Part shown: piece after piece, positions 13,759 to 16,817 of the stretch
Numbering within the stretch: position 1 is the first letter of the stretch
Layout of the letters: each line of letters starts with the position of its first letter
From: Roseithermus sacchariphilus
GTDB lineage: Bacteria > Bacteroidota > Rhodothermia > Rhodothermales > MEBIC09517
DNA: 64,000 nucleotides
Reading direction: 5' to 3'
NCBI GenBank assembly: GCA_003285105.1
Contig: CP030158.1
Coordinates: 1-64,000 of the forward strand
Translations under genes and position numbers: made by a program
Notes under the pieces: model-generated
Seen by the model: only the letters and a program-made list of their open reading frames with translations
Databases searched by the model: none
What the model was told of the DNA's origin: nothing

Positions 13759-15471
13759 TCACTTCGCGTAGGCGACCGACCGGACCTCGCGGATCACCGT
13801 CACCTTCACCTGGCCGGGGTACTGCATCTCGCTCTGGATCTTCTTCGAGATGTCCGAGGCGAGCTGCTCGGCCTGCGCGTCGGAGACGAGCTCGTGGTTG
13901 ACCATGACGCGGATCTCGCGGCCGGCCTGGATGGCATAGACCCGCCCGACGCCTTCGAACGAGGAGGCCAGCTCTTCGAGCTTCTCCAGCCGTTTGATGT
14001 AGTTCTCCAGCGCCTCGCGGCGGGCGCCGGGCCGGGCGCCGGAGATGGCGTCGGCCGCCTGCACGATGGGCGAGATCATCGCCGTCATCTCGATCTCGTC
14101 GTGGTGCGCGCCGACGGCGTTGCACACGTCCGGGTGTTCCTTGTACTTGCGGCACAGCTCCATACCCACGATGGCGTGCGGCTGCTCGATGTCCTCCTCT
14201 ACGACCTTGCCGATGTCGTGCAATAGCCCGGCGCGGCGGGCCATGGTGGCATCCAGGTTCAGCTCCGCGGCAATGAGCGAGGCGATGCGCGCCGTCTCGA
14301 TGGAGTGGGCCAGCAGGTTCTGCCCGTAGCTGGTCCGGTAGCGCATCCGCCCGATGAGCCGGATCAACTCGGGGTGGACGCCGTGCAGGTTCAGGTCGAT
14401 GACCGTCCGCTCGCCGGTCTCGATGATCTCCTCCTCGATCTCCTCGGTCACCTTTTCGACGACCTCCTCGATGCGGGCCGGGTGGATGCGGCCGTCCTGC
14501 ACGAGCCGGATGAGGCTGATGCGGGCGATCTCGCGGCGGACCGGGTTGAAGCCGGAGAGGATGACGGCCTCCGGCGTGTCGTCCACGATGACCTCGATGC
14601 CGGTGGCGGCCTCGAAGGCGCGGATGTTGCGCCCCTCCCGCCCGATGATCCGGCCCTTCATCTCGTCCGACTGGATGTTGACGACGGACACCGTGTTCTC
14701 GATGGCATGGCTGGCGGCCGTGCGCTGGATGGCGGTCAGGATGACTTTGCGGGCCTCGCGGTTGGCCTTCAGGCGGGCCTCGTCGCGGATTTCCTTGACG
14801 AGCGACGCCGCTTCGAGGCGGGCTTCGTCGACGAACTGCTCCAGCAGCATCTCGCGGGCCTCGCGGCGGGTGAGGCCGGAGACCTGTTCCAGCTTCCGGA
14901 TCTGCTCTTCGACCATGTGACGGAGCCGTTCCCGCTCGCTGTTGAGGGCGGCGTCCCGGTCCTCCAGCTCTTTCAGGCGCGCCTCGGCTTGCTGCTCCAG
15001 GCGGGCCGCCCGTTGCCGGCGCTGCTCCAGATCCTGGTGGAGCCCTTCGATCTGCCGCCGGAGGGTCTCGGCCGCCTGCCGGTGTTGGTCGGCTTCCTTG
15101 CGGAGCGCCTCGACGGCCTCGGCCGCCTTGTGGAGCAGGTTCTCGCGTTCGTTGACGCGCTGGATGCGCTTGTTGAGCTTCTCCTGTTTCTGGTCGATGC
15201 GCTGCTTGGAGCGGCGCAGGGTGCGCCGGGCTTCTTCTTGCTCCCGTTCCAGATCCTGCCGCTGCCGCACGAGCGCCTCTTCAGCCTTCTCGATGCGTTC
15301 GTAGCGGAGTCGTTCTATCTCCTGCTCGGCGTCGGCCAGGAGGCGCTGCGCCTCGGACCGGGCCCGAGCCACCTGCCCATGTCCCTGTCTCTGGAGAACA
15401 AACCGGTCTAGAGCAATACCTGCAACCAGCGCGACCACCGCCGTGATGACGGCTACCATGATCGCTTCCAT
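13759..15471 (-). CDS. rny: Ribonuclease Y
   Basis: Membrane-anchored endoribonuclease that starts mRNA decay. From the start [13 protein letters not shown] the product is 570 residues: one N-terminal membrane helix (about 5-22), a long charged coiled coil (about 30-210), a KH RNA-binding domain with [13 protein letters not shown], and an HD hydrolase domain with [14 protein letters not shown] longer upstream reading adds Cys/Arg-rich residues that do not look coding. It lies downstream of zapA on the same strand, separated by the structured RNA region. Convergent with proA, with a gap of about 25 bp holding a small GAGGCC/GGCCTC palindrome. Confidence 0.96.
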
Positions 15472-16075
15472 ATCGGTCAAAGCAGTTACTTCAAAAAAGG
15501 CGGTCTGAGCCGGAGCCCGCACCCCCGTCCGAGAACGACACGACGGACGGTGCAGACACGTCGCAAACCGCGAGGCTACGGATTCGGCACAGAAGATACA
15601 ACCGTCCAGCCGCAGCCACGATCCACCCGATCGATCCATCCGATGGATCCACCCGATGATGCAGGCGTGATCCGAGCGGCTCCTCCCCCGTGCACGGCAC
15701 CGGCATCCGGGACGGCCGTACCGTACCGATACGAAGGCGCCCCGGCAGGGTCGGGCGTCAACCGCGGACCGTACCGGGGCGTCCTTCTCAAGAGTACCAA
15801 CCCGCAGCGTTGGGTTTAAAAGAACCCCATTCAGACAATGCGGGCGCCGCTCAAGCCGTTCCGCCTTCCCCGGCCTCCGGCGTGTGCCGGACGAACCCCC
15901 GAGGGGGTGGGGCCTGGCGTACAGGCCTGAAGGATGGCTCCCTTCAGCGTAAGTGTTGGTTCTTTATTACGCAGTCTCTGCGGGTTCGTATCCTGCCTCT
16001 GACGAGGCAGGCAGGGTCCTTATATAACCGCCTCCCGTACCTGTTCCGGGGGAGCCGGCGAACCCCGTACAGGGT
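15472..16075. other. Long intergenic region between zapA and rny, 604 bp
   Basis: Holds the candidate 6S-like RNA (15795-15990), a hairpin just after zapA on the minus strand (CCTGT..CGGGG pairing CCCCG..ACAGG at about 16040-16073), a TTATATAA element (16020-16027), and a long imperfect hairpin (CGCCCCGG/CCGGGGCG, about 15736-15785) after the RNA. Closer to rny (15590-15670) are overlapping short palindromes around GATCCATCCGATGGATC. No protein-coding gene is seen. Confidence 0.6.
15795..15990 (-). ncRNA. ssrS: Candidate 6S-like regulatory RNA
   Basis: Nested complementary segments fold this stretch into one rod: 15795-15807 with 15978-15990 (12 of 13 paired), 15819-15826 with 15958-15965 (8 bp), 15848-15851 with 15946-15949, 15854-15857 with 15936-15939, 15864-15868 with 15929-15933 and 15872-15876 with 15923-15927. 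A large asymmetric internal loop lies at 15827-15847. The length (about 196 nt), rod shape with a central bubble, and position directly downstream of zapA on the same strand match 6S RNA, which follows zapA in E. coli. Strand is inferred from zapA synteny and a TATATAA element about 30 nt upstream. 6S RNA sequesters RNA polymerase holoenzyme. Without a covariance search this stays a candidate. Confidence 0.55.
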
Positions 16076-16408
16076 TTAATCGGTCGGATCGGACGCTTCT
16101 TTACCGCTCGCCTCGGGCCGCCCCAGCACGCCGTCCAGGCGGTCTGCCAGGGCGTCCAGGGCCTCGTCCACGGCATCGTCCTCTTCCCAGGTGCTGTACA
16201 GCTCTTCGGCGATGGCCAGCGCCGTGATCACGGCCGCGGTCAGTTCGGACTGGCCGGGATGTGCCTGCTGAAAGGCCTGCATCTTGCCGTCGACGTACGC
16301 CGCCACGTCCCGCGTCAGCGCTTCGTCGCCCGGGCGCACCCGCAGGGCATACTCCCGGCCGAGGATGCGCACGCGAATCGATTTGTCCAGGCCCGCGTCC
16401 TTGCCCAT
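16076..16408 (-). CDS. zapA: Cell division protein ZapA
   Basis: Small FtsZ-binding protein that promotes Z-ring bundling. It has 110 residues. The ZapA fold signature is IRVRILGREYALRVRPGDE followed by AAYVDGKMQAF and a C-terminal coiled-coil helix, ending in an acidic tail. The start MGKDAGLDKS is one base after the TAG of the upstream coiled-coil gene, so the two are translationally coupled. In Bacteroidota this gene commonly sits between pheT and rny, as here. Confidence 0.88.
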   Translation of the reverse strand: MGKDAGLDKSIRVRILGREYALRVRPGDEALTRDVAAYVDGKMQAFQQAHPGQSELTAAVITALAIAEELYSTWEEDDAVDEALDALADRLDGVLGRPEASGKEASDPTD

Positions 16409-16409
16409 G

Positions 16410-16817
16410 CTACGCCTCGTCCCGGTCCGCCCGGTTCTGGTCCAGGTATCGGTCGATGGCTTCGATGAAGCCGGCCACCTTCTGCCGCAGCACCTCGGGC
16501 TCCTCGTCGAAACCGACGAGGGCGCCCTCGACGTCGAGCAGCGGCCGTTGCTCGGCGGCCTGAAGGCGCTCGAGCAGCGCCGCATTCTCTCCGCGCAGGC
16601 GCTCCAGCTCACGGGCTGCTTCCTCGACCCGCTGCCGCAGGCGCTCCAGCGAGCGGTTGCCTTTCAACTGGATCGGACCGGCGGACGTGTCCCCGGCGGA
16701 CGTGTCCCCGGCGGACGTCTCGCCGGAGGCCGGGCCGGCCGCCATCGGATCCGTGCCGTTTCCACGCCGCCGTCCACGCCGGCGCGACGAACGTCGATTC
16801 GGGCGGTTGTTCCCCAT
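16410..16817 (-). CDS. Small coiled-coil protein of unknown function, coupled to zapA
   Basis: A 135-residue protein from the start MGNNRPNRRSS. The N-terminus is strongly basic (Arg/Asn/Ser). Next is a Gly/Thr/Ser-rich linker that includes three near-copies of the pentapeptide SAGDT. A heptad-type coiled coil (LERLRQRVEEAARELERLRGE..LERLQAAEQ) and an acidic C-terminal helix follow. It ends one base before the zapA start. Position and coiled coil suggest a division-associated partner analogous to ZapB or to the unnamed coiled-coil genes beside zapA in Bacteroidota, but no family is recognised with certainty. The start could be further upstream; the in-frame extension is Cys/Arg-rich and unlikely. 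Confidence 0.7.
   Translation of the reverse strand: MGNNRPNRRSSRRRGRRRGNGTDPMAAGPASGETSAGDTSAGDTSAGPIQLKGNRSLERLRQRVEEAARELERLRGENAALLERLQAAEQRPLLDVEGALVGFDEEPEVLRQKVAGFIEAIDRYLDQNRADRDEA
16681..16728. repeat. 15-nt in-frame tandem repeat, about 3 copies
   Basis: Three consecutive copies of a 15-nt unit (gcggacgtgtccccg and close variants) encode the repeated SAGDT pentapeptide in the linker of the coiled-coil gene. The first two are identical and the third diverges slightly. The unit length keeps frame. Confidence 0.85.

Follow-up and report, generated by a model that had tools for sequence, protein, structure and literature searches.

An unannotated and divergent member of the known 6S RNA family lies between zapA and rny (the gene for RNase Y) in the window, a stretch of 64,000 nucleotides from Roseithermus sacchariphilus. 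The presence of a 6S RNA had been proposed in a first-pass annotation, and is supported here by Rfam matches of orthologues, by covariation, by single copy and by the gene slot. The comparisons described below demonstrate the conserved RNA structure and its covariation, its single copy, its position and, through intermediates, its homology to Rfam 6S. We conclude that positions 15795–15990 very probably encode the sole 6S RNA of this organism, expressed and acting as proposed below.

The genes of the locus are all read on the minus strand, in the order pheS, pheT, the gene of a small protein, zapA and, after a gap of about 600 nt, rny. The RNA segment sits within this gap, on the same strand as both of its neighbours, the identities of which were correctly called in the first-pass annotation, as their Pfam domains attest:

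16076–16408, minus strand: zapA, upstream neighbour of the RNA (PF05164, E = 8.6e-17)
13759–15468, minus strand: rny (RNase Y), downstream neighbour of the RNA (PF12072, RNase_Y_N; PF00013, KH; PF01966, HD)

Judged by RNase Y, the nearest named relatives of the genome are classified in Rhodothermia, Rhodothermales and Rhodothermus. Two sets of repeats lie near the RNA. Three tandem copies of GATCCAYCCGAT, with 13-nt spacing, are found between the RNA and rny (15620–15657). A 15-nt repeat, GGCGGACGTGTCCCC, is present in about three copies at 16678–16732, inside the small gene upstream of zapA, where it adds in-frame residues.

The RNA folds into a 196-nt rod (15990–15795) of −91.7 kcal/mol, compared with −73.9 ± 4.5 kcal/mol for 200 dinucleotide shuffles (z = −3.94), none of which reached as low an energy. 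On the plus strand, the interval drawn in the first-pass annotation gave a z-score of about −3.3; on the minus strand, a slightly extended interval gave −3.2. The shape is that of 6S RNA, a rod of about 180–200 nt with a closing stem, a central bubble and a terminal stem. Two covariance models locate the conserved core: R1 was built from the sequences of 14 relatives, and R2 took its training sequences from this class alone. The parts of the RNA are as follows:

15795–15990, minus strand: rod-shaped body of the 6S RNA, 196 nt, the predicted mature RNA (fold z −3.94; R2 match 116.7 bits)
15819–15964, minus strand: conserved core located by R1 and R2
15978–15990, minus strand: closing stem P1, 5′ arm, UACGAACCCGCAG (fold; own-versus-swapped partner test)
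15795–15807, minus strand: closing stem P1, 3′ arm, CUGCGGGUUGGUA (fold; own-versus-swapped partner test)
15958–15965, minus strand: stem P2, 5′ arm, AAAGAACC (fold; permutation z −14.8; arms varied yet matching in relatives)
15819–15826, minus strand: stem P2, 3′ arm, GGUUCUUU (fold; partner-swap test)
15943–15957, minus strand: central bubble, 5′ side, AACACUUACGCUGAA (between P2 and P3)
15827–15841, minus strand: central bubble, 3′ side, GCAUUGUCUGAAUGG (fold; in relatives, Rfam alignments place the 6S bubble here)
15936–15942, minus strand: stem P3, 5′ arm, GGGAGCC (98.7% of cells paired; four pairs with double changes)
15842–15848, minus strand: stem P3, 3′ arm, GGCGCCC (same pairing data as the 5′ arm)
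15992–16011, minus strand: extra GC-rich hairpin that follows the −10-like box and precedes the closing stem (fold)

The rod of about 196 nt described in the first-pass annotation is thus recovered, as is its closing stem, in which 12 of 13 positions pair (15990–15978 with 15795–15807). The central bubble is also where it had been placed, but it is less asymmetric than had been claimed, because both of its sides measure 15 nt. The GC-rich hairpin that precedes the rod may be part of the 5′ end of the RNA or a processing signal. Similar hairpins are present in L007 and L032, and are common to the Rhodothermus-like family.

The fold was examined for covariation in relatives, a check that the first-pass annotation had named. 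Across 99 distinct sequences and 23 core pairs, 93.1% of cells hold standard pairs, and 16 of the 23 pairs show changes on both sides. The covariation score in these 99 sequences is 0.459; shuffling lowers it to 0.205, and sliding gives no more than 0.143. As the distance between P2 and the core varies, MAFFT on its own misaligned P2, and it could not align P1; covariance-model realignment and a partner-swap test took its place. Native P1 duplexes have a mean energy of −36.4 kcal/mol, compared with −24.2 kcal/mol when partners are permuted between species (z = −23.5). The same permutation gives a z-score of −14.8 for P2, the arms of which vary jointly (AAGAACC/GGTTCTT, AAGAATC/GATTCTT, GTGAACC/GGTTCAC and GAAGCC/GGCTTC). 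As a common base composition could inflate the partner-swap test, a reversed-partner control was added: with composition kept, the P1 arm prefers its own partner to the reversed one in 100 of 103 relatives. The stems that flank the bubble therefore carry compensatory changes, as those of 6S RNA do, through covariation in P3–P5 and through the partner tests in P1 and P2.

When 99 relatives were searched at the DNA level, 19 genomes showed local similarity, mostly beside a zapA or rny match. R1 reaches further: within the order it matches exactly once in each of 91 genomes out of 114, spread over 44 of 49 genera, and it has additional matches in 11 genomes from other orders of the class. An orthologue from a Rhodothermus sp. 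genome scores 126.9 bits with this model. 6S RNA is usually encoded by one gene per genome, with two in some Firmicutes. Single copy also holds in the host, a 4.8-Mb genome in a single contig: no second 6S candidate was found there with RF00013, RF01685, R1 or R2, a search that answers the concern in the first-pass annotation that a 6S RNA might lie elsewhere in the genome. Across the class, zapA is directly upstream on the same strand at 85 of 100 loci (median gap of 143 nt, measured from where the zapA match ends), and rny is downstream at 51 of the 100. Other families of the class still have zapA before the RNA, but no rny was found beside it. With R2, a single copy is found in each of 170 genomes out of the 345 sampled from Bacteroidota; elsewhere in the phylum the RNA lies directly before rny at 19 of 20 further loci examined, and the genes upstream of further R2 loci, where tested, are ZapA by Pfam.

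This arrangement is not universal. At L091, L092, L095, L105, L096, L101, L102, L104, L107 and L108 the RNA is present and neither zapA nor rny was found adjacent; as the RNA stands without these genes beside it in families f13 and f14, either the RNA or its neighbours relocated. One genus of the same order, g13 (L270–L275), yielded no 6S candidate genome-wide with R1 or R2, and an ABC-type ATPase gene follows its zapA. The gene may have been lost there, may have relocated and diverged strongly, or may lie beyond the reach of the models.

The relation to the Rfam 6S family (RF00013) is established through orthologues. The gathering cut-off of this model, 46.4 bits, is a detection limit and not a biological definition. 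The window copy does not reach it: no RF00013 match was found to this copy at E-values up to 5, nor anywhere in the genome, and a tRNA is the sole match above threshold in an Rfam search of the window. Weak matches to mir-762, Pxr, snoU82P and Acido-Lenti-1 near the segment were set aside as chance or a plain GC hairpin. At orthologous loci of the order, RF00013 gives full-length matches of 46.3, 40.8, 38.4 and 35.5 bits, with 32.1 bits in L088; no genome of the order exceeds the cut-off, the best falling 0.1 bit short. A locus from another order of the class (L121) scores 31.5 bits. The match in orthologues covers all 187 model positions. In a more distant member of the Bacteroidota (L294), in which the RNA lies between zapA and rny, the score is 47.1 bits, above the cut-off, which completes the link between the window RNA and the Rfam 6S family. 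Outside the class, weak full-length RF00013 matches occur in many Bacteroidota genomes, and all 28 of the new loci examined adjoin rny; in the 28 genomes of the phylum in which the two models were compared, the R2 match always lies inside the RF00013 match. Homology to Rfam 6S is thus carried by orthologues at the same locus, and the Rfam model misses the window copy because its sequence has drifted. The threshold test suggested in the first-pass annotation accordingly fails for the window copy itself and succeeds for an orthologue in the same gene slot. The other model suggested there, that of Bacteroidales-1 RNA (RF01693), which occurs in Bacteroidales, has no match in the window or at any related locus tested.

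The window RNA resembles 6S/SsrS (RF00013) in size, in its rod shape, in its central bubble with conserved flanking stems, in its single copy and in its place after zapA. The Rfam consensus pairs CuGAgCC:GGuUC and GGGagcc:ggcaCCC have counterparts in GAACC:GGUUC and GGGAGCC:GGCGCCC of the window. It differs in its sequence, too diverged for the Rfam model, and in its apical end, which has two hairpins in the predicted fold; R2 has no match to Escherichia coli ssrS. A neighbouring zapA is typical of 6S loci in Proteobacteria. In E. coli K-12 the order is zapA–ssrS–fau, and the zapA–ssrS pair is kept widely in beta- and gammaproteobacteria (PMC7641849). This is the synteny with Gammaproteobacteria to which the first-pass annotation had pointed. 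The downstream genes differ, rny following the window RNA and the gene for 5-formyltetrahydrofolate cyclo-ligase following ssrS in E. coli. Although rny does stand in place of ygfA, as had been remarked, this is no oddity: 6S-Flavo and other 6S loci occupy the same zapA–[RNA]–rny slot, which makes rny the usual downstream neighbour in Bacteroidota.

Weinberg et al. 2010 placed 6S-Flavo (RF01685) with RNAs whose function is that of a validated class (PMC2864571). It was found in the zapA–[RNA]–rny slot at all 30 loci examined, and its surroundings (small protein–zapA–[RNA]–rny) are those of the window RNA. Compared by eye, the Rhodothermia RNA and 6S-Flavo have their stems and bubble in the same order, and in both the 5′ bubble strand opens with AACACU and CAGGCC lies close to the apex, whereas 6S-Flavo is shorter and AU-rich. 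The RF01685 model has no match in the host genome or in the relatives searched, R1 and R2 have none to 6S-Flavo, and the listed R2 matches include no genome out of the 36 that carry 6S-Flavo. What ties the window RNA to 6S-Flavo and to ssrS is thus its position, its shape and weak Rfam matches. Elsewhere in the phylum, 6S RNA is expressed in Bacteroides thetaiotaomicron, with evidence for pRNAs (PMC7366714), and in Flavobacterium psychrophilum (PMC9723704). The likeness to the Bacteroides 6S RNA lies in other Bacteroidota RNAs before rny, which are detected by both RF00013 and R2.

Given a window copy that lacks an Rfam match and a sequence far from that of E. coli 6S, the RNA could be taken for a new family that resembles 6S and has a different function. 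We consider this highly unlikely, since the 6S model aligns to orthologues along its full 187 positions, in one case above the curated cut-off, the slot is the same as that of 6S-Flavo, and the genome yielded no second candidate for the 6S RNA.

Signals for separate transcription of the RNA are suggested by the sequences on either side:

16043–16047, minus strand: GGAAC, upstream promoter-like element of inferred role (frequent in this zone in relatives)
16020–16026, minus strand: TATATAA, −10-like element (30 nt before the closing stem; spacing to GGAAC as in relatives)
15738–15781, minus strand: hairpin resembling a terminator, CGCCCCGG...CCGGGGCG, followed by a weak U tail (sequence)

The TATATAA element noticed in the first-pass annotation, about 30 nt upstream on the zapA strand, is indeed there (16026–16020). 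GGAAC occurs within the upstream zone at 51 of 103 loci, compared with 7 expected, and in about half of the loci (for example, L032, L048, L068 and L114) it is followed after 16–18 nt by a TATA-like box; TTGAC and TATCCT-like boxes precede the RNA in other families. A generic promoter and terminator scan of the window returned no sigma-70 consensus promoter and no terminator, and a clear U run is absent after the window hairpin (15781–15738). Relatives have this GCCCCGG...CCGGGGC hairpin too, there with U runs, and an intrinsic terminator is present within 160 nt downstream of the RNA at 64 of 102 loci, compared with 8 in shuffles.

These terminators bear on another explanation, that the segment is no separate RNA but belongs to the rny transcript, as a structured 5′ leader controlling RNase Y. 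The frequency with which rny follows on the same strand, at 51 of 100 loci and at 19 of the 20 elsewhere in Bacteroidota, would fit a leader. However, other families of the class keep the zapA–RNA order with rny not found adjacent, an intrinsic terminator lies downstream of the RNA far more often than in shuffles, and Rfam 6S matches the orthologues end to end; we therefore give a leader very little credence. That the rod is a chance fold of a GC-rich intergenic region, for which it can be said that both strands fold well, as inverted repeats should, has a negligible probability and is refuted by the covariation in 99 distinct sequences, the P1 and P2 partner tests and the phylum-wide conservation.

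For a 6S RNA, the known biology suggests how the locus would work. In E. coli and Bacillus, the 6S rod mimics an open promoter and holds the housekeeping RNA polymerase, which is released when a pRNA is copied from the 5′ side of the bubble. For the window organism we infer the transcript ends, RNA polymerase binding and pRNA synthesis by analogy. Transcription would proceed on the zapA strand from a promoter near 16050–16020, with a start near 16014, giving a primary transcript from about 16014 to about 15735 that would end at, or be trimmed back from, the hairpin near 15740; trimming would leave a mature rod of about 196–220 nt. As growth slows, the rod with its central bubble would imitate an opened housekeeping promoter and occupy the sigma-loaded RNA polymerase. 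The 5′ side of the bubble, AACACUUACGCUGAA, is presumed to be the pRNA template by its likeness to known 6S RNAs. Once nucleotides are back, the polymerase would copy a short pRNA from it, predicted to be about AAGUGUUGGUUCUUUAUU, and would thereby be released.

A broader and more tentative proposal, which we hold to be possible rather than probable, is that the zapA–6S neighbourhood predates the split between Bacteroidota and Proteobacteria. 6S-Flavo, the Bacteroidales 6S RNA and the Rhodothermia RNA would then be vertical descendants of one gene kept beside zapA, their sequences having drifted beyond recognition. In part of the class, transcription would subsequently have shifted to a promoter of the GGAAC type, which would imply that a different sigma factor controls it.

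What is new here is modest: a model that detects 6S RNA across much of Bacteroidota, and the phylum-wide zapA–6S–rny arrangement. 6S RNA is a global transcription regulator, yet it falls below the Rfam cut-off in every genome of this order. Annotators gain a usable covariance model and an easy rule for locating the gene, between zapA and rny, and candidates are named for pRNA tests in thermophilic relatives of Rhodothermus. The age of the link between zapA and 6S RNA becomes a testable question.
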